Shown in pieces: positions 47,063 through 63,066 of a stretch of DNA of 64,000 nt. This DNA comes from Terriglobus saanensis SP1PR4 (GTDB lineage: Bacteria; Acidobacteriota; Terriglobia; Terriglobales; Acidobacteriaceae). The translations under genes were made by a program, and so were the position numbers. Every line of letters begins with the position of its first letter. The first letter of the stretch is position 1. A model generated the notes under the pieces. It saw only the letters and a list, made by a program, of their open reading frames with translations, was not told the origin of the DNA and searched no databases. The stretch is from the NCBI RefSeq assembly GCF_000179915.2, contig NC_014963.1:1674001-1738000 (forward strand), in the 5' to 3' direction.

Positions 47063-48025
47063 CTAACTCAGGGATTCGCAAAAGCCGCGAAACGCCTCCA
47101 AGGTCAACCCGTTTGGCGAGATCTGAAAATCGATGGTCCAGCTAAAGCTTGCACGCGGTGCAAGTTCGCAGGCGATGCCTTGCAACTGCGCATCGTACAA
47201 CGTACCAACCGGTGCGAGCGTTGGTTCCAACGCAACGGCATACTGCAGCGGATCTTCACTCCCTTCAGGCCAGCCGCCATAGCAGAGCCACACCCCAAGG
47301 TACGGAAGCTGCATGGTATCGAAGACAAGAACGACGCCCTGTTGTTTCGAGGCGCGATAAAGCCCACACCATCCTTGATTCAGGCGTGAGGTGTAAAGCA
47401 TCTCCCCGACGCCAGACTCATACGAAAGCGTCTGGCTTAGATCGATAGGCCCGGAAGATGTCTCGTTTATGGGCCAGGTCACGGTATCACCCGCTTGTCC
47501 GAGGCGATGGTTGCGAGAGTAGTTGAGTATCAGGCTTGTTACTTCTTCGGGAAGAACGATTCGGTCACCGGCCTCGACTGCAAGCAGAGGATGGCATGCG
47601 TAAAGAAATGATTCAGACTTGGCTCCAACATTTTCCACGCTATAACTCATGCGCAAAGATCGACCGAGCAGATGAATGTTCTTACGAAAAAGCAAGGGTC
47701 TACTGAAGCCCTGCGCGGAGAGGGAGAGATTCGATTTGGCGGAGGCCTCTTCCACCATCCACGGAAGCTGCCAGAAGTCTCCATGATCGGGAACCGCGCC
47801 ACCGATTGTTTCCTCATTGCACGCACCAACGCTCGGCAGACACTCTTCAATTCCAGCACAAGCTCCGTACTGGAAGCGTGCGTGAAGAGAAGGTGCCTGC
47901 GCGACACGCAGGTGTTGTGACTGAAAAAGGAATTCGAGACCCGTTGCCTGGTCCTTCAGCGATTGAACGCGGCCGCCCTCTTCCGGAACGATCGTGGCTG
48001 AGATGGAGCCGTTCTGAAAAAACAT
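47063..48025 (-). CDS. Galactose-mutarotase-like protein
   Basis: 320 residues from ATG 48025, five bases after the GH109 stop. The beta-sandwich fold of aldose 1-epimerases is suggested by NGSISATIVPEEGGRVQSLKDQATGLEFLF at the start and by a later histidine in YACHPLLAVEAGDRIVLPEE; GDFWQLPW and YLGVWLCYGGWPEG also fit mutarotase-like proteins. The usual catalytic Glu is hard to place (candidate EPTLAPVGTL). It is last in the operon of receptor, GH109 and this gene, so it may equilibrate a released sugar (inference). It ends two bases before the permease gene on the other strand. Confidence 0.72.
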   Translation of the reverse strand: MFFQNGSISATIVPEEGGRVQSLKDQATGLEFLFQSQHLRVAQAPSLHARFQYGACAGIEECLPSVGACNEETIGGAVPDHGDFWQLPWMVEEASAKSNLSLSAQGFSRPLLFRKNIHLLGRSLRMSYSVENVGAKSESFLYACHPLLAVEAGDRIVLPEEVTSLILNYSRNHRLGQAGDTVTWPINETSSGPIDLSQTLSYESGVGEMLYTSRLNQGWCGLYRASKQQGVVLVFDTMQLPYLGVWLCYGGWPEGSEDPLQYAVALEPTLAPVGTLYDAQLQGIACELAPRASFSWTIDFQISPNGLTLEAFRGFCESLS

Positions 48026-48030
48026 AGTTC

Positions 48031-49389
48031 TTATGCCTGCAGTGCGATGGCGGAGGCACTGCGATCGCGCCAGTGCCCGCGTGTGAAATCGGGCACCTCG
48101 ACCGGTGCGCTTCCAGTGCTGACAGAGCGCACGCTGAGCGGACCGATGGAAGACCATGCCGCAGCGTCATAGACGTCGATGTCGGGCGGTAGACCTTCGC
48201 GCATGCACTGCACCAACCGAAAGAGCATTAGAAAATCCATTCCTCCATGACCTCCCATCTTCTTGGCATTCTCTCCCTCATTTTTCCAGAGAGGATGATC
48301 GTATTTCTTCCAGGCTTCAAGCGAACCATATTTTTCTCCTCCCGCCTGGCCATCGACATAGATGCGGGGAGGATAGTCTTCGAAGACACCCTTGGTTCCA
48401 GCGATCGAGTTGACCCTGCTATAGGGGCGAGGATTGACGACATCATGTTTGACGGTAATAGTTCTTCCCAGGGAGGTCTTGATCAGCGAAACATTCATGT
48501 CGCCGGTGACGTATCGCTCAGCCCAACGAGGATCGCCCGCTTTGACGGCGTCTTTCCGATAAAGATCCAAGCCCTTCTGCTGCGAACTCATCGACACCAT
48601 ATGCTCGAAACGATCGCCGCGTTGAATCCCCATATAGTTGGCAACCGGGCCCAGCCCATGCGTCGGGTAGAGATTGCCATTGGCCTTTGTATGTTCCGCC
48701 CTGCGCCAGAGACCTTCACCCTGAGTGGAAAACAAGATGTTGCGGAGGTCATGGAGATACGCGCCCTCTCCGTAAAGAAGCTCGCCCAGTTCGCCTGCGT
48801 GGGTTAGGCGAAGCACGAGCGTCTCTTCGTAGCCATAACAACAGTTTTCCAGAATGAGGCAGTGTTTGCGTGTCTTCTCGGAGGTGTCGACGATCTTCCA
48901 GCAGTCCGCCATCGTGGTAACGGCGGGTACTTCCAAGGCCACATGCTTTCCGCTCTCCATCGCAGCAACGCCGATGGGCGCGTGCCAGTTCCAGTAGGTT
49001 GCAACGATGACCAGATCGACATCGGTACGTTTCATGAGATCTTCGAAGGAATGCTCATTCCCAAAGTAGATCTCCGGCTTCTTATGACCCGCTGCCTCTA
49101 CAAGGGACTGTGCATGCCTGGCCTTCTCCTCGAAGATGTCGCAGATTGCAACGATCTCCGCATCCGTGCCGAGTAGATTCTTGAGCAGCGAAGTCCCGCG
49201 TCCACCAACGCCAACGATGGCGATGCGAGGGATTTTCGCCTCAAAGGGAACATTTACCATCGTGGAACTTGCCAGAGCATGTGCGGGAATACTAGCAGTG
49301 GCACCGACACCGATCGTAGCCACTGCGCCCAGGCGGAGGAAGTCCCTTCTCGAACTATCCGCCCGAGCGCCTTCGTTGATTCGCTTCAT
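48031..49389 (-). CDS. GH109-type alpha-N-acetylgalactosaminidase (NAD-dependent)
   Basis: 452 residues. The N-terminus carries a twin-arginine signal (SSRRDFLRLGAVATIGVGATAS), so folded export is expected. The NAD-binding Gfo/Idh/MocA domain has PRIAIVGVGGRGTSLLKNLLG, VDLVIVATYWNWH and ESGKHVALEVPAV. The C-terminal domain carries NLYPTHGLGPVANYMGIQRGDRFE and YDAAAWSSIGPLSVRSV, features of glycoside hydrolase family 109 (NagA type), which cleaves alpha-GalNAc by NAD-assisted elimination/addition. A dehydrogenase of the same superfamily cannot be ruled out. It is the middle gene of a three-gene operon beneath the TonB receptor; the spacing to the mutarotase-like gene is five bases. Confidence 0.82.
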   Translation of the reverse strand: MKRINEGARADSSRRDFLRLGAVATIGVGATASIPAHALASSTMVNVPFEAKIPRIAIVGVGGRGTSLLKNLLGTDAEIVAICDIFEEKARHAQSLVEAAGHKKPEIYFGNEHSFEDLMKRTDVDLVIVATYWNWHAPIGVAAMESGKHVALEVPAVTTMADCWKIVDTSEKTRKHCLILENCCYGYEETLVLRLTHAGELGELLYGEGAYLHDLRNILFSTQGEGLWRRAEHTKANGNLYPTHGLGPVANYMGIQRGDRFEHMVSMSSQQKGLDLYRKDAVKAGDPRWAERYVTGDMNVSLIKTSLGRTITVKHDVVNPRPYSRVNSIAGTKGVFEDYPPRIYVDGQAGGEKYGSLEAWKKYDHPLWKNEGENAKKMGGHGGMDFLMLFRLVQCMREGLPPDIDVYDAAAWSSIGPLSVRSVSTGSAPVEVPDFTRGHWRDRSASAIALQA

Positions 49390-49451
49390 GAAAATCTCCT
49401 GTACCTCTGCTTGGATTAAATCTCGACCGTTACGGAATGAAAGCGGGAGCG

Positions 49452-52400
49452 CTAAAAGATAAATGCTCCCTGAAACGTGATCTGTCTAGGCTTGGCTACT
49501 TCCAGGGAACTGAAGGTACCAACCTGACTTGTGAATTGATTGCCACCCGCTACGGAGATGCTTCCACTGGGAGCGAGGAACTGAGGATGATTGAAGAGGT
49601 TCGACATCTGCGTAATGAACTGGAACTTTACACGATCGGTCAGCGCGATGTGTTTGATCAGGGAGAGGTGCGTGAGATAGAGGTTTTGGCTTTCCAGGCT
49701 ATTCGGTAAAGCGTTTCCAAAATGGCCAGCCTGCGGAACAGCAAAGGCTGCGGTATTGAACCAGTTGGTCTTGCTTTTGCCGCCTGGAATGTTATTCGGG
49801 TCGCCGATCAGATCGGGCAGGCCGCCAAAGGTATTCGTATTGGTCGGATCCGATCCCGAAAACGACGGTGAAAAGTACGTTCCTGAAGCAAGATAGGTGA
49901 TGACATTCGTTGACCATCCACCGATCACTCGGTCCATCGTTCCATTGGCTGTGCCAAGGAAGCGCTGGCCTCTGCCGAAGGGCAGAACATAAGCGAGGCT
50001 GCCGACTGCGTAGTGTCTACGCGTCAGACCGTCGTTCGCCCAGTGGCTAAGAACGTCGTAGGGGTTTTCTGTATCCAGATAATTAGCTTTGCTGCGCGCG
50101 AGAGAATAGTTGGCGTTGAAGGTAAAGCCACCGGCGCGTCGTTTCACATCGATCTGCAGGCTGTCGTATTTCGCGCCACCATCGAAGCGAAGCATCGTGG
50201 CCGTAACGAGATTCGGATAGGGCCTGCGGCTCGTCGTGAAGGGGGTTGTGCTTGGCTGAGGTTGATTGATGTTCAGAGAGTAATTCAGTCCAGTGCTGCG
50301 CGAACCGACATACGATGCGCGAAAGCCCATCTTCTTGAACTCAGTTTCATAGGTGCCACTGAACTGGTGAATATGTCCGTTCGTAACATTTCTCGGATAG
50401 CCGTTAACGCTTTGGCTGGGTACAGTCGCAAACGCGGTGCTGGACGGATAAGGATTGGGAAAGGAGAGAAGGGGAGCAGTGGTCGGGCTTGGTGTGTTTT
50501 GGAAATAGGTTTCCGAGAGGGCGAAGGGCCCAGTCGATCCTAGTTGAGGGTTGATGGGAAGGAAGTTATTGAAAGCTCCGGCGGCACCGAATCGGGAGAT
50601 ATAGATACCGTAGCCTCCCCGAAGAACAGAATGGTCCGTCAACTGATATGCGGCGCCAAGACGCGGAACAAAATTGCTTTTGGCTGCAATGGCCTGGACT
50701 GCTCCTGCCTTGACGGAGATATTGGAAGGATAGAGCGGGCTGACCTGAGCAATGGCTCCAGGGTCCACAAGGACGCTACCCGTGGCGGGATCGAAGTTAT
50801 ACAGCAGATGGTCGGGTGCGCCCGGGGTACCGTAGAGGTCCCAACGTGCGCCATAATCCAAGGTCAGTTTGTGCGTGAGCTTGAAAGAGTCCTCCACATA
50901 GAGTCCGTACTCTGTGAGGGTCTGCTCACGATCCCCGAGAGGATTGGTGCGCTGGCTTGATCGAGGCAGACCCAGGAGAAAGTCCGCGTACGCACTGCCC
51001 GTGATGGATCCGTCAAAGGTAAACGTTCCGTAGTCTGTAATTCTGCCGTAGAAGTTATCGAAGTGTTCGACGTTGCCACCGAACTTCCAGACGTGACGCC
51101 CTACCTGCCAGCTGATGGAGTCATTGATCGTGATGATACTGTTGTTTGCCTTCACACCTCCGGGAACATTCGTAAGTGCTGTCAAGCCAGTGATGCTGAT
51201 GCTTGGAAAGCCCTGACCTGTCTGCCCGCTTGGATTGGATCCGAGAAGACCGGTGGCAGTGAGAACTTTACTGCCGTCGGGGGGTGTCTGCCCAGCTTCG
51301 CTCTGCCCATCGACCATGTAATCCGTCGAATATCCGAAACGGAAGTTATTCAGCAAGCGCGGATTGAAGACGTGCGTATCGCCCGCGGCCCATTGTTGGT
51401 GGCGTCTCAGGCGGGTCCACACAAGGGCGGGAAGACCATTGTTCAAGACATAAGGAGTTTGCCGCATCAGCCAGCGCACGAAGATCGAGTTATTCTTCGT
51501 CAGGTTATGATCGATGCGCGCAAGCGGCCAGTCTCCGCGATAAAGGTCGCTATTGAAAGGGAAGTGGTAAGCATAATCATTGACCTGGGTAGTCGAAGCG
51601 ACGTTCGGCGCGGGAAGATAGTTGTTTTGAAAGGCCAGCGCAACCGCACTCATACGCTTTGTAGGGATAGTGTTCTGTGCGAAGGGCTGTCCGGTTGTAG
51701 GATCGATGATGGTGGTTGCGAAGACTCCGCCTCGCCATGCATTCGTTGGCACGCTCGCCTGATACTGCGTGCCAAGGGGAATTCTCTGGGCAAACCATTG
51801 GCCGTAGAAAAACGTTCTGTCTTTCCAGATGGGACCGCCTGCCTCAACATTCCATTCATGCTGTAGAAAAGACGTCTTCGTCGTGTCAAAGTAGCCCATC
51901 GCATTGAAGACGGAATCATAGATGCGGTAACTGGCCTGACCGTGAAATGCGTTACTTCCACGCTTCGTCACTTCGTTGATCTGAACAGGCACACTGCTTT
52001 CCGCTGGAGCGTTGAATAGAGTCGCAGAGACCTCTTCGAAGAAGTTCGCGTTATTGCTTTGTGCGCCCTGGAGATCGTTCGGAATGCCATCGAAGGTCTG
52101 TGTCTGTTGGGACTGCGTCTGCCCGTTGGCAATAGGGGACCCTGTGCCGCCCTGAACGCCGGATAAAGTCGTCAGCATCGAGTAAGTGGTGGGATAGATC
52201 GTCGCCTGGGGCGATTCGTCATGCTGCTTTCCGGTGAAGACGCCCTGGATTGTCGCGGACTCTGTCGCGATCAGTGCAGCGCCAGAGGAGACAACGATCT
52301 CATCTGCCGCCTCACCCAAAGCAAGCTGCGTATCCACGCGGCGAATCTGTCCGCTCTCCAGCAGGATGTTATTCGCTACAAACATCTTGAAGCCTTTGGA

Positions 52401-52712
52401 GGTAGCGCGAAGCTGATAGGTTCCCGGCTTCAACTCGCTGAACTCGAAGTCTCCGTTGCCGGTGGAAGTCGCCTGGCGGACGACTTGTCCCGTGGCAGGC
52501 TCAAGAAGACTGAGTTCTGCGGAAGGAACCACGCTACCGGAGGTATCCGTCACCGTTCCGCGAAGTGTGGCATTCACCGTCTGCCCGTAGAGCGCCATGT
52601 GCGTTGCAAAGCAGAGAAGCGCGAAACCAAGGAACAACCGGAGCTTATAAAAAAATAAAGCCCCACACCGGTTCGAAGAGAGTGAGAAGCCTTTTCGGTG
52701 CGAAAAATACAT
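49452..52712 (-). CDS. TonB-dependent receptor, Oar-like, with carboxypeptidase-regulatory-like domain
   Basis: 1086 residues from ATG 52712, supported by GGAGG upstream; ATG 52736 is weaker. A signal peptide ends near MALYGQT. Residues ~40-125 are a CarboxypepD_reg-like beta domain (VNATLRGTVTDTSGSVVPSAELSLLEPATGQ). A plug-like domain follows (~140-260), and the rest is an outer-membrane beta-barrel (~260-1086), finishing IFQGAFIF-type with a terminal Phe. This is the acidobacterial TonB-dependent receptor type, here probably importing a glycan or oligosaccharide. No TonB box is obvious. It heads the operon with GH109 and the mutarotase-like gene, and is divergent from the GH20 gene. Confidence 0.87.
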   Translation of the reverse strand: MYFSHRKGFSLSSNRCGALFFYKLRLFLGFALLCFATHMALYGQTVNATLRGTVTDTSGSVVPSAELSLLEPATGQVVRQATSTGNGDFEFSELKPGTYQLRATSKGFKMFVANNILLESGQIRRVDTQLALGEAADEIVVSSGAALIATESATIQGVFTGKQHDESPQATIYPTTYSMLTTLSGVQGGTGSPIANGQTQSQQTQTFDGIPNDLQGAQSNNANFFEEVSATLFNAPAESSVPVQINEVTKRGSNAFHGQASYRIYDSVFNAMGYFDTTKTSFLQHEWNVEAGGPIWKDRTFFYGQWFAQRIPLGTQYQASVPTNAWRGGVFATTIIDPTTGQPFAQNTIPTKRMSAVALAFQNNYLPAPNVASTTQVNDYAYHFPFNSDLYRGDWPLARIDHNLTKNNSIFVRWLMRQTPYVLNNGLPALVWTRLRRHQQWAAGDTHVFNPRLLNNFRFGYSTDYMVDGQSEAGQTPPDGSKVLTATGLLGSNPSGQTGQGFPSISITGLTALTNVPGGVKANNSIITINDSISWQVGRHVWKFGGNVEHFDNFYGRITDYGTFTFDGSITGSAYADFLLGLPRSSQRTNPLGDREQTLTEYGLYVEDSFKLTHKLTLDYGARWDLYGTPGAPDHLLYNFDPATGSVLVDPGAIAQVSPLYPSNISVKAGAVQAIAAKSNFVPRLGAAYQLTDHSVLRGGYGIYISRFGAAGAFNNFLPINPQLGSTGPFALSETYFQNTPSPTTAPLLSFPNPYPSSTAFATVPSQSVNGYPRNVTNGHIHQFSGTYETEFKKMGFRASYVGSRSTGLNYSLNINQPQPSTTPFTTSRRPYPNLVTATMLRFDGGAKYDSLQIDVKRRAGGFTFNANYSLARSKANYLDTENPYDVLSHWANDGLTRRHYAVGSLAYVLPFGRGQRFLGTANGTMDRVIGGWSTNVITYLASGTYFSPSFSGSDPTNTNTFGGLPDLIGDPNNIPGGKSKTNWFNTAAFAVPQAGHFGNALPNSLESQNLYLTHLSLIKHIALTDRVKFQFITQMSNLFNHPQFLAPSGSISVAGGNQFTSQVGTFSSLEVAKPRQITFQGAFIF

Positions 52713-52985
52713 GAAGAGCCTCCAGTGGTGCATCAACGGCTAGGGGTGCCAGTGTCAGAGGGGTTAGAACAGCTCAGCGATGAGGGAAGTTGACCTAGTA
52801 TGCATTACGTTTTGTATCTTGACAATGCTTTTGTAGAATTTTTGTAATCGTTTCATCTCTTTTTGTGAAGTGTCGGCAATAGAATGGAAGACAATTCAGA
52901 TCTCTCATTCCATAGCTTCGACCCCATCGAGATAGGGCACAGTTCCCGTCTGGTAGGTGCAGGGCTGGGGGTTGGCCTAAGCTGA

Positions 52986-52992
52986 AACGAAA
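52986..52992 (-). promoter_or_regulatory. Candidate DeoR/AgaR operator copy 1
   Basis: AACGAAA, the complement of TTTCGTT, within GAAACGAAAGAAAAAG, upstream of the GH20 gene. On the minus strand the flanks read TTTCTTTCGTTTC, echoing the repeated TTTC/GTTT pattern of E. coli AgaR operators as I remember them. Confidence 0.4.
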
Positions 52993-53041
52993 GAAAAAGA
53001 TCTTATGATCTAAGCTTTTGCGTTGAGAATCATCCGGTTCA

Positions 53042-53048: not shown

Positions 53049-53080
53049 CGGGAATGCCACAACTTACGGAGGAAAATAAC

Positions 53081-55156
53081 TTGCATAAGGGACACATCAT
53101 CTTCAAACGATTGCTTGCGGTACTCCTGGGTGCTGGTCTTTTCATAACGGCAGAGGTTCATGCTCACGCGGAAGACGTGCGGTTTGTGAATACACTGATG
53201 CCGCAACCTTCACAGCTGCGCCTCTCTACTGGCCCCGCAAAGATATCGCCGGAGATGAAGACGACCCTGCATGGCTCTAGCAATCCTCTCCTGCAGCAGG
53301 CCACCCGCCGCGCACTGGATCGTCTTGAAAGTATGACGCAGGTCCTGATCGACAAGAACCTGCAACCCACTGACACGGCGACCCTCGACATCGCGGTCGA
53401 AGACGTCACGGCCACACATCCTGTTCTGCAGATGGATGAGAGCTATTCGCTCGACGTACAGAGCGGCAAGGTCAGCCTCCACGCAAAGACGGTCTTCGGA
53501 GCGATGCATGGACTGGAGACCCTTCTACAGCTCGTGCAGACCCAAGGGACCGACTTCTTCTTTCCTGCTGTGCACATCGCGGACACGCCCCGCTTCCCAT
53601 GGCGTGGCTTGATGCTCGACCCAGGGCGGCGTTTTCTTTCCGTAGAGGAGATTCTTCGCACGCTCGATGGCATGGCTGCTGTGAAGCTGAACGTACTCCA
53701 CTGGCACCTCACCGAAGACCAGGGCTTTCGCATCGAGAGCAAGCGCTTTCCCAAGCTGCACGAACTAGGTTCCGAGGGCCAGTACTACACGCAGGAACAA
53801 GTACGACAGATCATCCAGTACGCCTCCGCGCGTGGAATCCGGATTGTGCCGGAATTTGATATGCCAGGACATTCCACCTCGTGGTTCGTCGGCTATCCCG
53901 AACTCGCCGCTCAGCCTGGGCCATATCACGTCGAACATGTAAACCATATCTTCAATGCGGTTATGGACCCCACGCGCGATTCCACCTATAAATTTCTCGA
54001 CACATTCTTTGGAGAGATGGCTGTGCTCTTCCCGGACGAGTACATGCACATCGGTGGAGACGAGAGCAACGGCAAGGATTGGAGTGCCAATCCAGCGATC
54101 GTCCGATTCATGCAGCAGCACAATCTGAAAGACAGCAAAGCGCTGCAGGCGTACTTCAATCTCCGTGTCCAGGTACTGTTGAAGAAGCATGGCAAGCAGA
54201 TGGTCGGGTGGGATGAGATTCTTCAACCAGAGCTCGCGCAGGACGTCGTCATTCAGAACTGGCACGGGTCCGAGTTCCTGATCAACGGTGCACGCCAAGG
54301 GCACCGCGGAATCTTCTCGAAACCCTACTACCTGGATCACATGTATTCCGCCGCAGAGATGTATGCAGCTGACCCGCTACCTGAGGGCAGTCCGCTCTCT
54401 GCTGCAGAAGCGAAGCTGGTCCTGGGTGGCGAAGCCTGTATGTGGGGCGAACAGATTGCCACGCTGACTGCGGACTCACGAATCTGGCCGCGCGCTGCCG
54501 CTGTGGCAGAGCGTCTCTGGTCTCCGATGACGATACGCGATACCGAAGATATGTACCGGCGTTTGGAGGTTACGTCTCTGCGTCTGGATGCACTGGGCAT
54601 CACACATCTCTCGACGCCGCAACGCGGCCTGAGACAACTCGCGGGAAGTGATGCGGGTGCGGCGAAACTTGCGTTCTTTACCTCGTTGCTACAGCCCGTG
54701 GATTTTCACGAGCGGGGAAAGGAGCAGCACACCTCGCCGCTCACTCCCATAGGACGTCTGGTGGATTTTACGACTTCGGACCCGCCATCACGGCGTCTCC
54801 TCGACGCGCAGATCCACGCCTATCTTCAGGCTACCGATCCCAGGATGCGCGAGATGCACCGCGAGGAGTTGATGGATACTTTCTTCCGCTGGCTGGAAGT
54901 ATCGTCGGACTTGAATACTCTGGCCGCAAACCACCCTCTGATCGCTGAAGTCAGAGTACGTCGCGAAGAGCTGCCAGCCCTTGCCTCTCTGGGAATTCAG
55001 TCCATCGGCTATCTCGAATCGCACACCATGCCTTCAGCGGAATGGACAGCCGCACAGACAGGGCTTTTGAGCAGAGCGGCAGAGCATAAGGAACTTGTGG
55101 ACTATGTGGTCCTCGATTCGCTCAGTGTCCTTTTGAACGCGACCTCCAGGCCGTAA
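53081..55156 (+). CDS. GH20 beta-N-acetylhexosaminidase, secreted
   Basis: About 691 residues from TTG 53081, preceded by GGAGGA at a spacing of seven; ATG 53054 lacks such a site. A signal peptide ends HAHAED. The small GH20b domain (~30-165) precedes the catalytic barrel with HWHLTEDQGFRIESKRFPKL, PEFDMPGHSTSW, and the catalytic Asp-Glu pair in HIGGDESNGKDW; later ligands are MVGWDEIL, NWHGSE and CMWGEQI. The family removes terminal beta-GlcNAc or beta-GalNAc by substrate-assisted catalysis. Within this locus it would act with GH109 on GalNAc-containing glycans. A C-terminal ~170-residue extension beyond the barrel has no recognisable domain. It is transcribed divergently from the receptor operon. 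Confidence 0.92.
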   Translation: MHKGHIIFKRLLAVLLGAGLFITAEVHAHAEDVRFVNTLMPQPSQLRLSTGPAKISPEMKTTLHGSSNPLLQQATRRALDRLESMTQVLIDKNLQPTDTATLDIAVEDVTATHPVLQMDESYSLDVQSGKVSLHAKTVFGAMHGLETLLQLVQTQGTDFFFPAVHIADTPRFPWRGLMLDPGRRFLSVEEILRTLDGMAAVKLNVLHWHLTEDQGFRIESKRFPKLHELGSEGQYYTQEQVRQIIQYASARGIRIVPEFDMPGHSTSWFVGYPELAAQPGPYHVEHVNHIFNAVMDPTRDSTYKFLDTFFGEMAVLFPDEYMHIGGDESNGKDWSANPAIVRFMQQHNLKDSKALQAYFNLRVQVLLKKHGKQMVGWDEILQPELAQDVVIQNWHGSEFLINGARQGHRGIFSKPYYLDHMYSAAEMYAADPLPEGSPLSAAEAKLVLGGEACMWGEQIATLTADSRIWPRAAAVAERLWSPMTIRDTEDMYRRLEVTSLRLDALGITHLSTPQRGLRQLAGSDAGAAKLAFFTSLLQPVDFHERGKEQHTSPLTPIGRLVDFTTSDPPSRRLLDAQIHAYLQATDPRMREMHREELMDTFFRWLEVSSDLNTLAANHPLIAEVRVRREELPALASLGIQSIGYLESHTMPSAEWTAAQTGLLSRAAEHKELVDYVVLDSLSVLLNATSRP

Positions 55157-55285: not shown

Positions 55286-56089
55286 ATGAAGAAAGCCGAT
55301 GCAAAGGTGCCAAGCGCCGCCAATCCCATGCTCATTGAGGAAAGGCGCCAACACGTTCTCGCCACGATCCAACGGGAAGGACGTGTACTGGTCTCAGAGA
55401 TAGCGGAAGAGTTGAATATCTCTCGCATCACGATCCGCAAGGATCTGGATCATCTGGAAGCCAGGGGCCTGGTGCAGCGCACCCATGGTGGAGCACTGGC
55501 GCCGCAGGTGGGATCTCTTCTCGATCCGTCGCTGCAGGAGAAAGAGCAGCATCAACTCCAGGAAAAACAGAGGATCGCATCCGCAGCGGTGAAGCTCGTG
55601 GAAGAAGGCCAGTGTGTTCTTCTGGATTCCGGCACTACCACCACGGCCATCGCGCGCGCGCTTAGAGGATTCTCCAAACTGACAGTGGTGACTAACGCCG
55701 TCAACATTGCCGCAGAACTTACTGGCACGAACTTTGATGTGATCCTGACTGGCGGCATGTTACGCAAGAACTCGTTTTCCCTCGTCGGTCCCCAGGCCGA
55801 AGATGTACTCCGAGAGATCAACGCCGACATCCTGTTTCTCGGGGTGGATGGCTTCGACCCACGCATCGGTGTCACCACGCCGAACGTGCTGGAATCGCGC
55901 GTGAATCGGGCCATGGTGAAGGCGGCCCGAAAGATTGTCGCAGTGTGCGACTCCACAAAATTCACTCACCGTAGCTTTGCGTTGATTGTTCCGCCGTCAG
56001 CGATTCATACCGTGATTACGGATTCGCGTCTCTCCGCGGAAGATGCGCAGACGCTGCGCAATGGCGGCATCGAAGTCATTCTGGTCTGA
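55286..56089 (+). CDS. DeoR-family repressor, AgaR/GlpR-like
   Basis: 267 residues. An N-terminal helix-turn-helix (~20-75) with EERRQHVLATIQREGRVLVSEIAEELNIS and RITIRKDLDHLEARGLVQRTHGGA is followed by the DeoR C-terminal sugar-phosphate sensor with CVLLDSGTTTTAIARAL, VTNAVNIAAEL and DILFLGVDGFDPRIGVTTPNVLESRVNRAMV. These repressors usually respond to phosphorylated intermediates. Position in the sugar locus suggests it controls the cluster. It converges with the kinase gene. The 130 bases upstream contain ATACG-GATT-CGTAT (about 55212-55225), an imperfect palindrome, but no TTTCGTT heptamer. Confidence 0.9.
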   Translation: MKKADAKVPSAANPMLIEERRQHVLATIQREGRVLVSEIAEELNISRITIRKDLDHLEARGLVQRTHGGALAPQVGSLLDPSLQEKEQHQLQEKQRIASAAVKLVEEGQCVLLDSGTTTTAIARALRGFSKLTVVTNAVNIAAELTGTNFDVILTGGMLRKNSFSLVGPQAEDVLREINADILFLGVDGFDPRIGVTTPNVLESRVNRAMVKAARKIVAVCDSTKFTHRSFALIVPPSAIHTVITDSRLSAEDAQTLRNGGIEVILV

Positions 56090-56096
56090 CCTTCGT

Positions 56097-57038
56097 TTAG
56101 TCGAGGAGAGCCGTTTCGGTATGCGCGGCGAAGAAGCTTTGCATGAGCTCTGCATCGCGGTAGGATTCGGTGCCGCCTGGACGGAGCGTCGAAAATGCAG
56201 CCGCAAAATTGCCCATCGCAGCGCACTCCGCGAGAGGTTTCTTCGCGAGATATCCTTTGAGAAAGCCCGCGTTGTAACTATCCCCGGCTCCAATGGTATC
56301 GACTGGCACCACTTGAGGCGGCGGAACGGACCAGCGTTGTTCGCCGGCCTGCACAATCGAACCGCGCCCGCCGCACTTCACCGCCACGATACTCACGCGC
56401 TTCGCCAGACGCGCGATGGCCTCGTCCAGATCCTCGGTCTGGGCCATGCGCTTGGCCTCATCTTCGTTGGGCAGGAGTACATCCACGCAGTCCAACATTT
56501 CGTCCAGAGGTGCGCCCCATCTGTCCTCCGGGTCGTCGTTCGTATCGAGCGAGATAGTCAAGCCTTTCCCCGAGAGCTCTCGGCACAGTGCAGGCAGACC
56601 GGCCTGCAGTCCCTTCTGTAGGAAGAGAGAAGAGACATGAAAGTGGCGACTGTCTGCTACAAAATCGACATCGACATCGCTCACCGTCATCTCTGCCATC
56701 GTTCCAAGATAGGTAAGAATATGCCGCGTCGCACCATGATGCAGCAGGAGTGTGACCCCTGTCTGCGAGCCTGAAGCGAAGGTCGTACGGGACACATCCA
56801 CGCCCGCCACACGTAACCGCTCGAGCGCGATCTCTCCCAGCGGATCGCTTCCAACACGCGTTACAAATCCTACTTTGGCACCCAGAACAGACAGATTATG
56901 CGCAAGGATTGCTGATGAGCTTCCAAGGGTCAGCCGAAAATCATTCGCGAGCAACTCTCGGTCCACAGGCATCTGCTCGGCAAGCCCGTAAAGAATCAAG
57001 TCGAGATTAATCTCTCCGGCAATCGTTACATCGAACAT
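56097..57038 (-). CDS. PfkB-family carbohydrate kinase
   Basis: 313 residues from ATG 57038, ten bases after the upstream stop. The ribokinase fold shows IAGEINLDLILYG, LGSSSAILAHNLSVLGAKVGFVTRVGSDPLGEIAL, a substrate-lid region, and the C-terminal PfkB signature DTIGAGDSYNAGFLKGYL with the catalytic Asp (in GAGD) and the anion hole. In GalNAc pathways PfkB-type kinases phosphorylate tagatose-6-phosphate (LacC/AgaC-like), but other sugars, including GalNAc itself or galactosamine, are possible; specificity cannot be read from sequence. It is third in the AgaZ-AgaS-kinase series on the minus strand. Confidence 0.85.
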   Translation of the reverse strand: MFDVTIAGEINLDLILYGLAEQMPVDRELLANDFRLTLGSSSAILAHNLSVLGAKVGFVTRVGSDPLGEIALERLRVAGVDVSRTTFASGSQTGVTLLLHHGATRHILTYLGTMAEMTVSDVDVDFVADSRHFHVSSLFLQKGLQAGLPALCRELSGKGLTISLDTNDDPEDRWGAPLDEMLDCVDVLLPNEDEAKRMAQTEDLDEAIARLAKRVSIVAVKCGGRGSIVQAGEQRWSVPPPQVVPVDTIGAGDSYNAGFLKGYLAKKPLAECAAMGNFAAAFSTLRPGGTESYRDAELMQSFFAAHTETALLD

Positions 57039-57048
57039 GCTCAAACCT

Positions 57049-58095
57049 TCAGATCGTGACAACGCGGTTGAGATTTTTCGGGTTGTCCGGATCCAGACCC
57101 TTCTCCAAACCACGATAGCTGCCGAGCAGCTGTCCCCACAAGACGTAGACGATGATCCGCGCGAGCTCTGGTACCGGCAGACTAAGTTCGATGAGAAGAT
57201 CTGCTGTTTCACGGAGCGTCTCCGAAGCAGAGTTCGCCACGGCGAAGATTGTTCCGCCTAGTTCCTTCATCTCTACCAGCACCGAAATCTCGCTCTCGTA
57301 GCCGGATTCGGAGATAAGGCCGCCCACCATCGCTTTACCGTCCACGACGGATTTCGGCCCGTGGCGAAACTCCAACGTGTGGAAGTATTGCGCATAGCTC
57401 GAAGAAGACTCCATGACCTTCAAAGCGGTTTCGGAAGCGATTGCGTAAAGAGGTCCTTGGCCGAGAAAAGCAAAATCCTCAAAGTCCTGTTTGGCGAACT
57501 GCTCAATCCGCGGTCCATAAATTTTCAGCAGGCGTTCGGTATGCTCCGGCAAGGTACGCAGAGCGAAGAGGAACGCGTCGTCGCCTGCGATAGAGGCAGC
57601 CAGATACTGAAGAGCCATCAGCATCGAGGTAAAAGAGGAGGTCATCACCGTGCTTTCCTCGATGACGGGTAGCTTCAACGTCCGAGGGCTGAGACGTTCC
57701 AGTTCGCGTCCATCGCACGTAACGGCCAAAAACTCCATGGAGCGGCCCTGAAGATACTCAGCCACGTGCAGCACTTCAGAGGTGTGACCGGAGCGCGAGA
57801 TCAGGACGGGAAAATAATTGGAAGTGTCGTCAGGAAATACGAGAGAGGGGAAGAGCAGGATTTCAGAGGCTGGTACGGCCCGGGTCTTCACGCTGAGCAA
57901 TGTGGTGAAGCTGGCAGCTGCCGCCTGCGCAAGATAATAACTGGTACCGCAACCTACGAAAACCCATTCCGTCTGGCGTGGATCTTTGCCCTGCACCAGT
58001 GAGGTCAGGTCGAAGTTTTCCAGCATGTCCAGGCAGTCTTGCCAGACCTTAGGCTGTCCATAAATCTCTAAAACCGTTTTTACATCCTGTCGCAT
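57049..58095 (-). CDS. agaS: AgaS-type SIS-domain sugar-phosphate deaminase/isomerase
   Basis: About 348 residues with two SIS domains. The first has EWVFVGCGTSYYLAQAAAASF and PVLISRSGHTSEVLHVAEYL; the second has FAFLGQGPLYAIASETALKVMES, then HTLEFRHGPKSVVDGKAMV and the C-terminal NLNRVVTI. Segments ETALKVME and EFRHGPKSVVD match E. coli AgaS (galactosamine-6-phosphate deaminase) in order as I recall it. It would convert galactosamine-6-phosphate to tagatose-6-phosphate plus ammonia. The start is ATG 58095, after AGGTG; GTG 58101 is possible. It is followed ten bases later by the PfkB kinase, and preceded by a 191-base gap holding a palindrome. Confidence 0.83.
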   Translation of the reverse strand: MRQDVKTVLEIYGQPKVWQDCLDMLENFDLTSLVQGKDPRQTEWVFVGCGTSYYLAQAAAASFTTLLSVKTRAVPASEILLFPSLVFPDDTSNYFPVLISRSGHTSEVLHVAEYLQGRSMEFLAVTCDGRELERLSPRTLKLPVIEESTVMTSSFTSMLMALQYLAASIAGDDAFLFALRTLPEHTERLLKIYGPRIEQFAKQDFEDFAFLGQGPLYAIASETALKVMESSSSYAQYFHTLEFRHGPKSVVDGKAMVGGLISESGYESEISVLVEMKELGGTIFAVANSASETLRETADLLIELSLPVPELARIIVYVLWGQLLGSYRGLEKGLDPDNPKNLNRVVTI

Positions 58096-58286
58096 GTTCA
58101 CCTGATTCTTTGAGCCTCATCGCAGAGGGAGCGGCTGCTTGTCCAGCAACGGACACCTCTGCAGCGCATCTATGATCTATCATAGCATCTATAACGAAAT
58201 GTAAAGATGTAAAAAATAACTTCTTATCGGACAAAGCATTACTTGAACGATGCCAAAACGCCCTTCTTTTCCGGGCGGAGCTGGTT
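58096..58286. promoter_or_regulatory. Upstream region of agaS-like gene with palindrome and direct repeat
   Basis: 191 bases between the AgaZ-like stop and the AgaS-like start. A perfect palindrome CTATGAT-CT-ATCATAG (58170-58185) overlaps a direct repeat GCATCTAT (58166-58173 and 58185-58192, 19 bases apart). A cluster heptamer (AACGAAA, 58193-58199) follows immediately. This suggests the AgaS-kinase pair has its own promoter and operator. No terminator for AgaZ is clear. Confidence 0.5.
58193..58199 (-). promoter_or_regulatory. Candidate DeoR/AgaR operator copy 3
   Basis: AACGAAA within ATAACGAAATGTAAAG; the reverse strand reads TTTACATTTCGTTAT. It lies next to the palindrome 58170-58185, upstream of the AgaS-like gene. 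Confidence 0.4.
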
Positions 58287-59567
58287 TTATTCGGAAGCGG
58301 GAAAACAAGCGGCGGCATACGGCTTAAGCGCTTCTCGGATGCTGTAGAGGATCAGATCCACTGGTCTTTTCGAAAGCATTCTCGCGCGGACGACTTTGTA
58401 GTGTTCGGGCATCTGCGCACTCAAGAGTGTCTCCGGTATGGAGAGGGAATTCAGATTGGAGATGAGCAGATCGGTCGCCTTCTGCACGCTCGGATGTCCC
58501 CAGTAATAACGTATGCGGTCGCTATAGCTGTACCTGCGAAGGAGCCGTTGCTCTTCCGGGCTCCCGTGGTAATGGCTCACCCAGTCCTTCGGATCGGAGA
58601 CCATGGCTTCCTCCACGACAGAGCGTAGCGAGGAGCGCCTCTTGGGCGCGATGAGTTCGTCTTCGATCGCTGCCAGAGCGAAAATCGCCTCGCGCATGGC
58701 AAACGTCAGCGCTGGCCCGACCTTCAGAATGGCAAATCCATCGAGCACGAGATCACGATAGGCTGCGGGCTTTTGATAATCCGTGGAGTGCGCCTCAAAG
58801 ACGAGGCCGTCGGCAGAGTCTAGCAGCGACTTCAACTCTTCTGCTTTAGCGGGTATGTAGTCCACAACACTGTCGTGATTGAATTCGACTCCGGGCTGTA
58901 CCACCAGGCCCACCACACGAGGCCAGACGACACCCAGGCCCTGACGGTTGAAGATCTCGTGGTGAATCCGTAGCGTGTTTTCGGCAGCGGCCCGGGTCGT
59001 TACTTCAAGTTCTGTAAGAGCCTCCGTCGCACCGCCCGGGATGGGCACTTCGGTCCCGATAATGTAGACGGGCCTTTCCCCGGTGAGAGCGGCCTCTGCT
59101 GCCAGGCAAAGTTGGGCGGCGCGTTCCGCGACCACTTCGTCGGAGAGAGGCACCGTTTCTCCTGCGCACGCCATGCTCGCGTCGAGATGCAGCTTCTTAA
59201 AGCCTGCGGCCGCATACTCGGCCATCATCTCTTTGGCTAACGCCATGGCCTCCTCTGCCGGAAGCTTCTGCCAGGCGTTGGGTCCGAGGTGATCTCCCCC
59301 AAAGATGATTCGGTCCGTGGAGAGACCCTCCTCTTCCGCAATCGCAACGACCATCCGCCGGAAGTCCGCAGGACGCAGTCCTGTGTATCCCCCGTGCTGA
59401 TTGACCTGATTCGAAGTCGCTTCGATCAACAGTGGACTTTCGTCCGAGAGAGCCTGTTGAATGGCAGCGCGGATGACCCAGGGATGCGCGGAACACACGG
59501 AGTAAATGCCTCGTGCGCTGTTTGGTGTCTTTCGATTTGCGAGCAAGCTCTCCAGTAGATTGAACAT
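58287..59567 (-). CDS. GatZ/KbaZ/AgaZ-family protein
   Basis: 426 residues, close to E. coli GatZ (420). Diagnostic segments are GIYSVCSAHPWVIRAAIQQAL, LLIEATSNQVNQHGGYTGLRPADFR, IIFGGDHLGPNAWQKLPAEEAM, FKKLHLDASMACAGE and VYIIGTEVPIPGGA. In enterobacteria GatZ/KbaZ is the partner subunit of tagatose-1,6-bisphosphate aldolase (GatY/KbaY); AgaZ has also been proposed as a tagatose-6-phosphate kinase. No GatY/KbaY gene is present nearby, so a kinase or isolated-aldolase role is open. It starts the minus-strand series AgaZ, AgaS, kinase, and is divergent from the amidohydrolase across 142 bases containing a candidate operator. Confidence 0.9.
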   Translation of the reverse strand: MFNLLESLLANRKTPNSARGIYSVCSAHPWVIRAAIQQALSDESPLLIEATSNQVNQHGGYTGLRPADFRRMVVAIAEEEGLSTDRIIFGGDHLGPNAWQKLPAEEAMALAKEMMAEYAAAGFKKLHLDASMACAGETVPLSDEVVAERAAQLCLAAEAALTGERPVYIIGTEVPIPGGATEALTELEVTTRAAAENTLRIHHEIFNRQGLGVVWPRVVGLVVQPGVEFNHDSVVDYIPAKAEELKSLLDSADGLVFEAHSTDYQKPAAYRDLVLDGFAILKVGPALTFAMREAIFALAAIEDELIAPKRRSSLRSVVEEAMVSDPKDWVSHYHGSPEEQRLLRRYSYSDRIRYYWGHPSVQKATDLLISNLNSLSIPETLLSAQMPEHYKVVRARMLSKRPVDLILYSIREALKPYAAACFPASE

Positions 59568-59650
59568 TGGATATCCTCTTTCTCCGCTTCCGTCGAATAA
59601 ACAGAAGGGCCGAACTCCTCTTCCAGCATGCGCTACAATTATCGCCTAAA

Positions 59651-59673
59651 CAAAGAAAACGAAACCAAACGAT
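59651..59673 (-). promoter_or_regulatory. Candidate DeoR/AgaR operator copy 4, 5-base periodic
   Basis: The sequence CAAAGAAAACGAAACC-AAACGAT contains AACGAAA (59658-59664). On the minus strand it reads GTTTG-GTTTC-GTTTT-CTTTG, four TTT blocks at a five-base period. This closely follows the periodic TTTC/RTTTY operator described for E. coli AgaR, as I remember it. It lies between the divergent AgaZ and amidohydrolase genes, 36 bases before the latter. Confidence 0.5.
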
Positions 59674-59709
59674 ACACAGTGCTTATAGCATGACCTGGGA
59701 GGTGGCATC

Positions 59710-60768
59710 ATGGATATGACGGACAAAGACAAATTTGTAGATATGGTCAGCGCAACGGCTGAAGTAGACCTGAGACTCAGCGATTTCCATCCCCGGTCTT
59801 CTCTGCGGACGACCGTACACGCGATTGAGCGTGGCAAGTTTCCTGTCATCGATTATCACAATCATCTCGACTCCACCGATCCCAAAGAAGTGCTGTCCAT
59901 TATGGATCAGACCGGTGTGGAGCACGTGGTCAATATCACCATGCAGGTGGGCCAGAAGGCGCTCGACATCATGGACCGTTTTCATGCCGCTGCGCCGGAC
60001 CGCTTCTCCAGCATCGGTTGGATGGATTGGAGCGGAGTCGAAGGCTCGGACTTTGTGAAGGTCACCGTCGACCGCCTGCATCGCATGATCGATCACGGCG
60101 CTTGCGGTATCAAGTTCTGGAAAGACTTCGGCCTGACCCTGCGTGATTCGGAGAACAAACTCATTCGGATTGACGACGATCGGTTCGCCCCGATCTTTGA
60201 GGCCTGCGGAGATCTCGCTCTTCCCGTTATGTTCCATACCGCCGACCCGAGCGCCTTCTTTGAACCGATCGATGCGTACAACGAGCGATACGAGGAGCTG
60301 GCGGCGCATCCCGATTGGGGATTCTCTACTTCACCCGTTTCAAAACGAGACCTGTTGGAGCAGCGGAACCGGGTCATCGAACGCCATCCTGCAACGACAT
60401 TCGTAGGCGCGCACTGTGCAGAAAGCGGGGAAGATCTCGAATATCTTGCGCAGCAACTCGATCGCCTCCCGAATCTGCAGATCGATATCAGCGCGCGAAC
60501 GCCCGAACTGGGGCGGCAGCCCTATAGCGCCCGCGCCTTTTTCCTGAAATATTGTGATCGGATCCTCTTTGGAACCGACCTTCTGCCAGATACTGAGATG
60601 TATCGACTCTACTTTCGTTTTCTCGAAACTGCGGATGAGTACTTCGAGTACCCATCGCACGCCTCACGGCAGGGAAGATGGAATATCTACGGGATCTTCC
60701 TGCCGGACGATGTCCTGCGTAAGATCTATCGAGAGAATGCTCTCAAGCTTATGCCGCACCTGCGTTAA
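59710..60768 (+). CDS. Amidohydrolase family 2 protein
   Basis: 352 residues from ATG 59710, preceded by GGGAGGTGG. A TIM-barrel metal hydrolase: the N-terminal HxH motif is in VIDYHNHLDSTDPKEV, further ligands are His in LPVMFHTADPSAFF and GAHCAESGEDL, and Asp in RILFGTDLLPDTEMY near the C-terminus. This amidohydrolase_2 type decarboxylates or hydrolyses small substrates. NagA/AgaA deacetylases belong to a different amidohydrolase branch, and none is seen in the locus, so this gene is a candidate for the missing deacetylation step only by context. A short N-terminal lead (~1-50) is unusual. It is followed 56 bases later by the MFS gene. Confidence 0.83.
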   Translation: MDMTDKDKFVDMVSATAEVDLRLSDFHPRSSLRTTVHAIERGKFPVIDYHNHLDSTDPKEVLSIMDQTGVEHVVNITMQVGQKALDIMDRFHAAAPDRFSSIGWMDWSGVEGSDFVKVTVDRLHRMIDHGACGIKFWKDFGLTLRDSENKLIRIDDDRFAPIFEACGDLALPVMFHTADPSAFFEPIDAYNERYEELAAHPDWGFSTSPVSKRDLLEQRNRVIERHPATTFVGAHCAESGEDLEYLAQQLDRLPNLQIDISARTPELGRQPYSARAFFLKYCDRILFGTDLLPDTEMYRLYFRFLETADEYFEYPSHASRQGRWNIYGIFLPDDVLRKIYRENALKLMPHLR

Positions 60769-60823
60769 TGTTGCTGTTGTCCCGCACTGCTCTAAGTAGA
60801 ATCCAAGCCCGAGGCCTCCTAGA

Positions 60824-62503
60824 TTGCCACGTAAATTGAATCCTGTTTTGTACAACCGGTACCTTATCGCAGTGGCTGGCCTGGGCGGACTTCTGTACGG
60901 CATCGATGTGGGCATTATCGCGGCGGCGCTTCTTTATCTGGGAAAGACGGTGAACCTCTCCGTCGGGCAGACCTCGACCATCGTAGCGGCGGTCCTCGGC
61001 GGAAGCATGGTCTCTTCACTGATCGCAGGGTTTCTGGCGGACTGGGTAGGGCGGAAGAAGATGATGATCGTCAGCGGCCTGCTCTTCGTCGCGAGCGTGG
61101 GCATCATCGTCATCTCGCAGGGCTTTGTGCCTCTTCTGATGGGGCGTCTTCTGCAGGGCATCAGCGGCGGTGTGATCGCCGTGGTGGTTCCTCTTTATCT
61201 CGCGGAGTGTTTGAGCGCGGATGAAAGAGGCAAGGGCTCGGCCATCTTCCAGTTCATGCTGACGGTCGGCATCGTCGTCGCGGCGGTCACCGGCCTCTAC
61301 TACACGCGCACCGCGGAAGCAGCCATCGCCGCGGCCAACGGCAACGCCGTCCTCATCCATGCCGCGCAGGACCATGCGTGGCGAGGCATGTTTTTGTCCG
61401 TGATCTATCCGGGCATCGCCTTCTTTTTGGGCACGTTCTTCCTGAGTGAAACGCCGCGCTGGCTCTTTCGCAAGGGCCGTCGCGAAGAGGCGATGACCTC
61501 GTTACGACGTGCCAACTTTGAAGACGCCGCGCTGCGCCAGATGCGCGAGATGGAAGAGTTGAGCGCCGAGAATAAAGCAGCGGATGCAGCAGTAGGTGCC
61601 GTCGGCACGCTCTTGCAGAGAAAGTACGTCATACCGTTCGTTCTTGCCTGCCTGATCCTGGGACTCAACCAGGCCACGGGAATCAACTCCGTCCTCGCTT
61701 ACCTCGTGGTTATTTTGAAGCAGGCAGGTATGACCGCGCAGCACGCCACGGAAGGCGATCTTGCGGTCAAAGTTCTCAACTGCCTGATGACGATCGTGGC
61801 CATCGCCCTGATCGACCGTCGTGGTCGCAAGTTCCTGCTCACCCTCGGTACCGGCGGCATCGTGCTCTCGCTTACCGTCGCAGCGCTCCTATTCCACGGA
61901 TTTGAATCCAACCGGACGGACGTCATGCAGCAGGTAGAAGCCGCCAGAACGGGCGACCACCTCACGCTGCCCATGTCTGCCATGCCCTCTACCGACGGAA
62001 AAGCCGCTTCGCTTACAGTGCTCTATACCTACGGAGACGGTGACCACATCGCCACGGCACTCACTACCGACCCGGATCCTGTCCTGAAGATCGCGCCAGA
62101 AAAGCCGGGTACCCAACTCACCATCGAACGCGCTTCGTTTGGTGTGCTCCCTACGGAAAAAATGGGTTGGTGGATCACGACCTGCGTTGCGTTCTTTATC
62201 GCGTTCTACTCAGTAGGGCCCGGTGTCGTAGTCTGGCTCACGCTCTCAGAGCTGATGCCGACACGCATCCGTTCCGCAGGCATGGGAATCGCTCTTCTAC
62301 TCAACCAGGGCGCATCTACACTGATCGCAGGTGTCTTTCTGCCCGTAATCGGCCGTTATGGCTACTTCGCGATGTTCGCCTTCTGGGCGCTCTGCACGGT
62401 CCTGTATTTCATCATCGCGGCGTTCTTCCTTCCCGAAACGAAGGGCAAAACGCTCGAAGAGATCGAGCTGCACTTCCAAAAGGCAGCGGGACGGAGCGCT
62501 TAG
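60824..62503 (+). CDS. MFS sugar porter with long central insertion
   Basis: 559 residues, twelve helices. Sugar-porter signatures include VGRKKMM after helix 2, GRLLQGISGGVIAVVVPLYLAE, the PETPRW-like SETPRWLFRKGRREEA at the centre, LILGLNQATGINSVLAYLVV in the second half and the C-terminal FFLPETKGKTLEEIE. An insertion of about 85 residues (~360-445), rich in Asp, Thr and Ala, separates helices 9 and 10 on the outer side, longer than in XylE- or GalP-type proteins. Start is TTG 60824, with no ATG in a better position. It would bring in the free amino sugar, consistent with a kinase in the cluster rather than a PTS. Substrate is inferred. Confidence 0.88.
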   Translation: MPRKLNPVLYNRYLIAVAGLGGLLYGIDVGIIAAALLYLGKTVNLSVGQTSTIVAAVLGGSMVSSLIAGFLADWVGRKKMMIVSGLLFVASVGIIVISQGFVPLLMGRLLQGISGGVIAVVVPLYLAECLSADERGKGSAIFQFMLTVGIVVAAVTGLYYTRTAEAAIAAANGNAVLIHAAQDHAWRGMFLSVIYPGIAFFLGTFFLSETPRWLFRKGRREEAMTSLRRANFEDAALRQMREMEELSAENKAADAAVGAVGTLLQRKYVIPFVLACLILGLNQATGINSVLAYLVVILKQAGMTAQHATEGDLAVKVLNCLMTIVAIALIDRRGRKFLLTLGTGGIVLSLTVAALLFHGFESNRTDVMQQVEAARTGDHLTLPMSAMPSTDGKAASLTVLYTYGDGDHIATALTTDPDPVLKIAPEKPGTQLTIERASFGVLPTEKMGWWITTCVAFFIAFYSVGPGVVVWLTLSELMPTRIRSAGMGIALLLNQGASTLIAGVFLPVIGRYGYFAMFAFWALCTVLYFIIAAFFLPETKGKTLEEIELHFQKAAGRSA

Positions 62504-63062: not shown

Positions 63063-63066
63063 CGAC

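Follow-up and report, generated by a model that had tools for sequence, protein, structure and literature searches.

A predicted AgaR-controlled N-acetylgalactosamine utilization locus in Terriglobus saanensis SP1PR4, with AgaZ as a candidate C4-epimerase and no class II aldolase

Terriglobus saanensis SP1PR4 appears to carry an AgaR-controlled locus for the use of N-acetylgalactosamine (GalNAc), and probably of galactosamine, from alpha- and beta-linked glycans, in which AgaZ would serve as a C4-epimerase; we place the probability of this reading at about two in three (0.68). The locus lies at positions 47063 to 62503 of the window, the whole 64,000-nucleotide stretch analyzed here, which corresponds to positions 1674001-1738000 of a closed genome (G000) consisting of a single 5.1 Mb contig and estimated to be 99.99% complete. 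The reading draws on observed gene content, motifs, class II aldolase absence, recurrence of the gene set and operator-like sites, from which the substrates, the order of steps, the choice of kinase and the role of the amidohydrolase are inferred; growth, induction and enzyme activities are accordingly worded below as predictions from sequence. The features of the locus are as follows.

47063..48025 (open reading frame annotated to 48157), minus strand: mutarotase-like protein of the aldose-1-epimerase/DUF4432 type, with weak profile matches below cut-off
48031..49389, minus strand: GH109 protein (NAD-dependent alpha-N-acetylgalactosaminidase family), with PF21252 and 6t2b/2ixa matches and GGHGG at residue 379
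49452..52736, minus strand: TonB-dependent-type outer-membrane receptor (CarboxypepD_reg and OMP_b-brl_4)
52846..52865, plus strand: AgaR-type operator-like site with 3 mismatches, within a TTTTGT-like repeat run in the receptor/GH20 gap
53054..55156, plus strand: GH20 beta-N-acetylhexosaminidase, with a catalytic domain match and a hydrophobic N-terminal signal judged by eye
55286..56089, plus strand: AgaR, DeoR-family repressor (NF040755 match)
56097..57038 (open reading frame annotated to 57212), minus strand: sugar kinase of the PfkB family, its start some 11 bases beyond the SIS gene
57049..58101, minus strand: double-SIS sugar-phosphate deaminase/isomerase (PF01380, two stretches), previously labeled AgaS
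58287..59567, minus strand: AgaZ/GatZ/KbaZ protein (TIGR02810), a predicted tagatose-6-phosphate 4-epimerase
59645..59674, minus strand: AgaR-type operator-like repeats in the AgaZ/Amidohydro_2 gap, the best 20-mer (59650-59669) having 1 mismatch
59710..60768, plus strand: Amidohydro_2 protein of the ACMSD/lactonase clan, with an HxH...K...H...H...D metal-ligand pattern and no signal peptide by eye
60824..62503, plus strand: major facilitator superfamily (MFS) sugar porter for inner-membrane uptake (TIGR00879)

All ten genes named by the first-pass annotation of this DNA, which had been made from the sequence alone, were recovered in the order it gave and within the outer bounds 47063 and 62503, as judged from the open reading frame list and family profile matches. 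The receptor, GH109 and mutarotase-like genes on the minus strand look like one operon, with the mutarotase-like gene probably co-transcribed behind GH109, and the true starts of the PfkB and mutarotase-like genes probably lie further in, near 57038 and 48025, respectively. Because the receptor and GH20 genes diverge, as do AgaZ and Amidohydro_2 (the latter followed by the MFS gene), the block is not a single operon; AgaR is convergent with the SIS/PfkB pair.

In the proposed pathway, glycan fragments would enter through the outer-membrane receptor into the periplasm, where GH109 and GH20 would free GalNAc and N-acetylglucosamine (GlcNAc), the released sugar then being imported by the MFS porter. 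A profile scan confined to the proteins of the locus found no genes of a GalNAc phosphotransferase system (PTS); in a locus without one a kinase must phosphorylate the sugar, the PfkB protein being the leading candidate. Deacetylation could fall either to NagA, encoded elsewhere in the genome, or to the Amidohydro_2 protein of the locus. The SIS protein would then convert galactosamine-6-phosphate into tagatose-6-phosphate by deamination and isomerization, and AgaZ would convert tagatose-6-phosphate into fructose-6-phosphate by C4 epimerization, bypassing tagatose-1,6-bisphosphate.

AgaZ matches TIGR02810 with 619 bits (cut-off 568.8), is 54% identical to E. coli KbaZ, and occurs as a single copy in the genome, within this locus. 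No match to PF01116, to which the class II aldolases AgaY, KbaY and GatY belong, was found anywhere in the genome in a scan that was positive in 11 of 14 control genomes and did not extend to class I aldolases; the catalytic class II subunit (AgaY/KbaY/GatY) of a two-subunit tagatose-bisphosphate aldolase was thus not found in this closed genome. In a sample of 150 family genomes, this one included, AgaZ occurs in 31 (as a fragment only in G059), PF01116 in 31, and both in five (the aldolase match in G071 being fragmentary). No statistical association links the two (Fisher P 0.62): in this family AgaZ is not a regular companion of class II aldolases. A PF01116 match is lacking in 26 of the 31 AgaZ genomes, this one among them, a count to be read knowing that draft incompleteness can mimic absence and that 25 of the 31 have a completeness of 90% or more and a contamination of 5% or less.

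According to the accessible text of Palur et al. 2025 (PMC11907403), GatZ and KbaZ turn fructose-6-phosphate into tagatose-6-phosphate, as found in E. coli deletion and expression experiments, and the reverse reaction is cited there. The same text names His88, His257, Glu171, Asp87, Cys20, Glu44 and Lys279 of GatZ as metal-ligand, catalytic or family-specific residues, with roles that rest on a predicted model. By alignment, C20/E44/D87/H88/E171/H257/K279 of GatZ map to C25/E49/D92/H93/E173/H260/K282 of the window protein, and each of the 24 aligned sequences, the window protein and KbaZ among them, retains all seven signature residues. Because a class II aldolase partner is missing, the activity has been reported for GatZ and KbaZ, and the seven residues are kept, AgaZ is predicted most likely to act alone as a tagatose-6-phosphate 4-epimerase giving fructose-6-phosphate. 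Proteins of the GatZ/KbaZ/AgaZ type are still named non-catalytic aldolase subunits (TIGR02810), and AgaZ is listed as a proposed tagatose-6-phosphate kinase in the accessible part of a review (PMC12118421). A closed genome and most sampled AgaZ genomes lacking a class II aldolase match offer natural catabolic systems in which the epimerase role could be tested.

The PfkB family includes tagatose-6-phosphate kinases, and the PfkB gene persists at loci where no AgaZ was found. Both points would suit a classical ending in which the PfkB protein is the tagatose-6-phosphate kinase, a class I aldolase encoded elsewhere cleaves tagatose-1,6-bisphosphate, and AgaZ is accessory. We nevertheless regard this ending as unlikely: AgaZ has no class II aldolase partner here and mostly none in the family (class I enzymes not having been searched), epimerase activity has been reported for GatZ and KbaZ in the accessible text of PMC11907403, and a route without a PTS would need a second kinase, of which the locus holds none.

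The regulator of the locus is of the DeoR type and exceeds the cut-off of the AgaR equivalog model (NF040755, 266.6 bits versus 260), with 39% identity to E. coli AgaR. Candidate operators were sought with a pattern that we take to be the E. coli AgaR consensus and then checked on the E. coli aga cluster, where, with as many as 3 mismatches allowed, it found nine sites against 0.52 expected, none of them outside the agaR/kbaZ and agaA/agaS gaps. The window holds five sites (0.38 expected), a number reached by none of 100 shuffles: three overlap in the AgaZ/amidohydrolase gap, the best with 1 mismatch, one with 3 mismatches lies in the receptor/GH20 gap, and one falls outside the locus at 27598. 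A second AgaR-type locus of this genome, described below, has 3-mismatch operator-like sites preceding AgaS and the receptor gene, plus another within an unrelated gene, and 19 stretches of the same genome outside both loci (108 kb) gave a single site at 3 mismatches. At a tolerance of 2 mismatches, 14 of the 16 site clusters seen in 61 loci, the window among them, lay within 300 bases upstream of pathway genes, against a mean of 1.0 and a maximum of 9 upstream clusters for 60 column-permuted patterns; since these loci were selected for pathway genes and are mutually related, this comparison should not be read as a probability. Taken one by one, many loci lack an operator-like site at 2 mismatches. 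In genome G066, of another genus, a 3-mismatch site lies about 260-350 bases upstream of a receptor-GH109 pair (L214). Sites resembling AgaR operators thus lie near the promoters presumed to be regulated, and a shared operator of this kind suggests that Proteobacteria and Acidobacteriota have kept a common regulon logic.

The SIS protein (PF01380, 77 bits over two stretches) had been labeled AgaS, a name that its profile scores do not bear out. It reaches 129.6 bits with the GlmD model, 122.8 with GlmS and only 105.3 with AgaS (TIGR02815, cut-off 529), of which only the ranking is informative because canonical-type acidobacterial AgaS proteins also fall below that cut-off (283-294 bits). Its nearest solved relative is 1j5x, named a glucosamine-6-phosphate deaminase (E 6.7e-37), the AgaS-like chain 3odp matches more weakly (E 4.7e-18), and identity to E. 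coli AgaS is 24%. An FRHGPK-like motif was considered as a discriminator between AgaS and GlmD and dropped, since solved GlmD-type chains carry similar motifs. A better AgaS, of the canonical type (TIGR02815, 283.8 bits), is encoded at the second locus, C1:~3045998-3054414 (about 7998-16414 of L211, C1:3038001-3056000), together with a GH109 protein, a NagX-like protein, an AgaR paralogue and a receptor. The second-locus GH109, AgaR paralogue and receptor are 65%, 44% and 26% identical to their window counterparts, the paralogue scoring below the AgaR cut-off at 246 bits. The genome therefore has two AgaR-type loci and one AgaZ, which is absent from the second.

The substrate of the SIS protein is best approached through its genomic context, examined at 33 places outside the window that encode homologues of the Amidohydro_2 protein (Amido2 places: at least 55% identity, fragments excluded). 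A PfkB gene lies within 10 kb in 20 of these, and PfkB together with a deaminase in 17, where the deaminase is of the canonical AgaS type in 12, of the window type in four, and at 26% identity unassigned to either type in one. The two deaminase types look interchangeable in such neighborhoods, and this replacement of the window type by canonical AgaS in the same context is the best argument for galactosamine-6-phosphate as a substrate of the window protein too, though it falls short of proof.

Several observations weigh against the proposed reading. Besides the draft incompleteness and the model-based residue roles given above, the AgaR score is barely above its cut-off, the SIS protein ranks closer to GlmD and to a structure named for glucosamine-6-phosphate, and the canonical-type AgaS of the second locus means that the window SIS protein could act on another sugar. 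The AgaS-PfkB-Amidohydro_2 set is kept where no AgaZ was found in G128 (no class II aldolase match) and G148 (one match), so the end of the pathway must differ there, and a glucosamine-6-phosphate role for the SIS protein becomes possible. At nine of the 33 Amido2 places, including a 4.8 kb contig, PfkB, AgaR, both AgaS types and AgaZ are all missing within 10 kb. Finally, in L009, from a Terriglobus sp. metagenome-assembled genome that is the closest named relative (92% identity across the SIS protein), the core genes occur without GH20, receptor, GH109 or mutarotase-like genes alongside.

On such grounds the core (MFS porter, PfkB, Amidohydro_2 and SIS proteins) could instead form a general or GlcNAc-type amino-sugar pathway, with the SIS protein converting glucosamine-6-phosphate into fructose-6-phosphate, AgaZ as an add-on, and GalNAc handled mainly through the second locus. 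This alternative, which we consider improbable without dismissing it, draws on the GlmD-like ranking and the name of 1j5x, on the canonical-type AgaS, GH109 and AgaR paralogue of the second locus, on the core without AgaZ in G128 and G148, and on the lack of a clear NagB in the genome, where one of the three PF01182 hits is a 6-phosphogluconolactonase and the other two, NagB-like, score below cut-off. The hit at C1:627840 was rejected as NagB, being the 6-phosphogluconolactonase and lying beside zwf and glucokinase. The regulator and operator-like sites are nevertheless of the AgaR type, the sole AgaZ of the genome adjoins the core, canonical-type AgaS occupies the same context at 12 of the 33 Amido2 places, and another SIS protein of the genome (L212), which scores as GlmS/NagB-II type, could handle glucosamine-6-phosphate. 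The layout of SIS, PfkB and porter genes, and the 30% identity of the PfkB kinase (162.5 bits) to FrlD, also recall the catabolism of fructosamines (Amadori products) by a PfkB kinase and a SIS deglycase, as in frl/fra-like systems. We regard this as scarcely credible, since that pathway has no known role for AgaZ, AgaR, GH109 or GH20, and an frl-like reading was rejected because the SIS protein had no FrlB match at E 1e-3 and none to the FrlB NCBIfam model.

The GalNAc reading also involves the Amidohydro_2 protein (PF04909, 89.9 bits versus a cut-off of 26.4), homologues of which (E <= 1e-30) occur in 79 of the 150 family genomes. At least one of PfkB, AgaR, either AgaS type or AgaZ lies within 10 kb in 24 of the 33 Amido2 places, and at least two in 21. 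AgaZ and an amidohydrolase homologue, distant ones included, are found within 20 kb of each other in 14 of the 31 AgaZ genomes, and a homologue anywhere in 25. Both histidines of the HxH motif, H176 and H235 are conserved in 53 of 53 sequences, and K135 and D290 in 52 of 53. No solved relative was found by sequence at 1e-5. A predicted model (pLDDT, the predicted local distance difference test, 75; ten aligned sequences) matched the ACMSD/lactonase/decarboxylase clan with Z of about 20, and because many members match about equally well the function is not readable from the predicted fold; NagA-type chains were not among the matches listed, which excludes nothing.

It is tempting to see in the Amidohydro_2 protein a deacetylase, since the locus has no AgaA (the profile scan of its proteins gave no Amidohydro_1 or NagA match), but a NagA is encoded elsewhere in the genome (C1:2033752-2034876, 321.7 bits, cut-off 225.65), as in 120 of the 150 family genomes over cut-off. 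According to the accessible text of PMC3668189, agaA and nagA of E. coli can stand in for one another, so the lack of AgaA is not decisive in a genome that has nagA. A bolder proposal, that Acidobacteria use two replacement enzymes, with an ACMSD-clan amidohydrolase as a new type of GalNAc or GalNAc-6-phosphate deacetylase and AgaZ alone as the end step, is speculative and we think it doubtful; if it is true and a PfkB-family GalNAc kinase opens the pathway, neither a PTS nor tagatose bisphosphate would be required. The recurring amidohydrolase is in any case a concrete candidate for an unassigned amino-sugar step in soil-type bacteria.

Capture and hydrolysis form the more variable part of the locus. 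The GH109 protein belongs to its family by domain (PF21252, 166.8 bits) and by a GGHGG loop at residue 379, which we take to be the catalytic loop, and its structure matches are 6t2b (E 1.5e-113) and 2ixa (E 7.3e-78). The GH20 catalytic domain scores 328 bits against a cut-off of 22.3. Because N-terminal signals were seen by eye, twin-arginine-like in GH109 and hydrophobic in GH20, both proteins are probably exported. In the receptor a CarboxypepD_reg domain accompanies an OMP_b-brl_4 domain with 623 bits, and a 65% identical homologue adjoins GH109 in another genus (L214). The mutarotase-like protein matches Aldose_epim with 25.2 bits (cut-off 27) and DUF4432 with 21.9 (cut-off 32.5), both weak, and has a 47% identical homologue beside a GH35 protein in L118. 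The porter scores 249.8 bits with TIGR00879 (cut-off 237.8).

AgaZ, the amidohydrolase, GH20 (62%), GH109 (63%) and the receptor (65-66%) occur together in G066 (L118, L214), and GH109 lies near AgaZ or Amidohydro_2 in L110, L118, L119, L162, L177 and L186. The culturable relatives Bryocella elongata (L012) and Granulicella rosea (L014) also have AgaZ within their loci. Absent beside the core genes in L009, the hydrolases and receptor constitute an accessory block. Proteins of melibiase type (GH36-like) accompany the gene set in other genomes (L113, L114, L115 and L121), with mutual identities of 56-75%; the sole one checked, that of L114, is about equally close to 8x1b, an alpha-galactosidase (6.6e-73), and to 9awt, a blood-group-A galactosaminidase (1e-70). 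In L112 a sulfatase and GH35 accompany the set, and in Granulicella rosea (L014) GH88 and an alginate-lyase-like protein do so. Such a variable front end would suit differing GalNAc-containing glycans.

The first-pass annotation had proposed GalNAc/galactosamine catabolism with outer-membrane capture and added hydrolases, an interpretation that is partly supported. Support comes from the AgaR model and operator-like sites, from AgaZ, from GH109 and GH20 beside AgaZ and Amidohydro_2 in another genus (L118), from the same types of regulator, kinase and amidohydrolase occurring with canonical-type AgaS elsewhere, and from the melibiase-type neighbors. That the genes might be mere neighbors with no shared job, the GalNAc reading being an artefact of family names, seems very improbable: accessory hydrolases do differ between genomes and nine of the 33 Amido2 places lack core genes, but overlapping sets of locus genes recur in other Acidobacteriota with shared operator-like sites, which goes beyond a chance neighborhood, and AgaZ lies close to an Amidohydro_2 homologue in 14 of 31 AgaZ genomes. 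The label AgaS is not clearly supported, and the stress laid on missing PTS and AgaA genes as unusual traits proved too simple, the former being already known in Shewanella (accessible text of PMC12118421) and the latter not decisive where nagA substitutes. The unusual points lie elsewhere, in the missing class II aldolase and the recurrent amidohydrolase.

A Shewanella GalNAc regulon without a PTS, said to have been described by Leyn et al. in 2012, reportedly has AgaR-type control and AgaS/AgaZ steps. In Shewanella, an outer-membrane transporter, the permease AgaP and the kinase AgaK replace the PTS (accessible text of PMC12118421), so aga loci with outer-membrane receptors and no PTS are already known. 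The window locus shares with that system the outer-membrane transporter and a permease and kinase in place of the PTS, and differs in its MFS porter, PfkB kinase, GH109, GH20, Amidohydro_2 protein, GlmD-like deaminase and lack of AgaA in the locus, the porter and kinase being set apart from AgaP and AgaK by description, without direct sequence comparison. With E. coli K-12 aga/gam it shares AgaR (39%), AgaZ/KbaZ (54%) and the operator consensus, whereas the locus lacks PTS genes, neither KbaY nor any other class II aldolase was found in the genome, and the deaminase is only 24% identical. It resembles the GatZ/KbaZ tagatose-6-phosphate 4-epimerases of PMC11907403, as far as the accessible text goes, in the seven named residues and in an AgaZ without aldolase partner, and departs from them in that AgaZ sits in an amino-sugar locus and has a predicted activity. 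Unlike the window locus, the second locus has a canonical-type AgaS and an N-acetyltransferase-like (NagX-like) protein and no AgaZ. A literature search, mostly at title level and with most subscription papers outside its reach, found no account of this locus. New relative to known regulons without a PTS are the deaminase type, GH109/GH20 and the recurring amidohydrolase, and most clearly AgaZ without a class II aldolase; as far as can be told without direct comparison, the kinase family and porter also differ from the Shewanella version.

Further genes were noted around related loci. The melibiase-type gene in L113, L114, L115 and L121 adjoins a more distant Amidohydro_2 homologue, with an AgaS-PfkB pair nearby. 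A NanE epimerase-ROK kinase fusion (L119:7470-9113) lies near AgaZ, Amidohydro_2, PfkB and GH109, which suggests a link to N-acetylmannosamine or sialic acid use in that genome. A protein of about 655-690 residues (F656), for which Pfam, NCBIfam and PDB gave no match at the thresholds applied, recurs mostly beside AgaS/PfkB/Amidohydro_2 genes and is not among the genes of the window locus (L012:7766-9817 and L118:10730-12694; relatives in L112, L117, L161, L162, L166, L170, L173, L176, L178, L179 and L183-L185). Immediately 3' of the MFS gene, at window positions 62601-63585, are overlapping msrB and msrA-type methionine sulfoxide reductase open reading frames. At the other edge, a MacB/FtsX-type permease gene (44383-47061) ends at 47061, convergent with the mutarotase-like gene ending at 47063, and its homologue in L009 directly follows AgaR, marking where the hydrolase block is present or absent.

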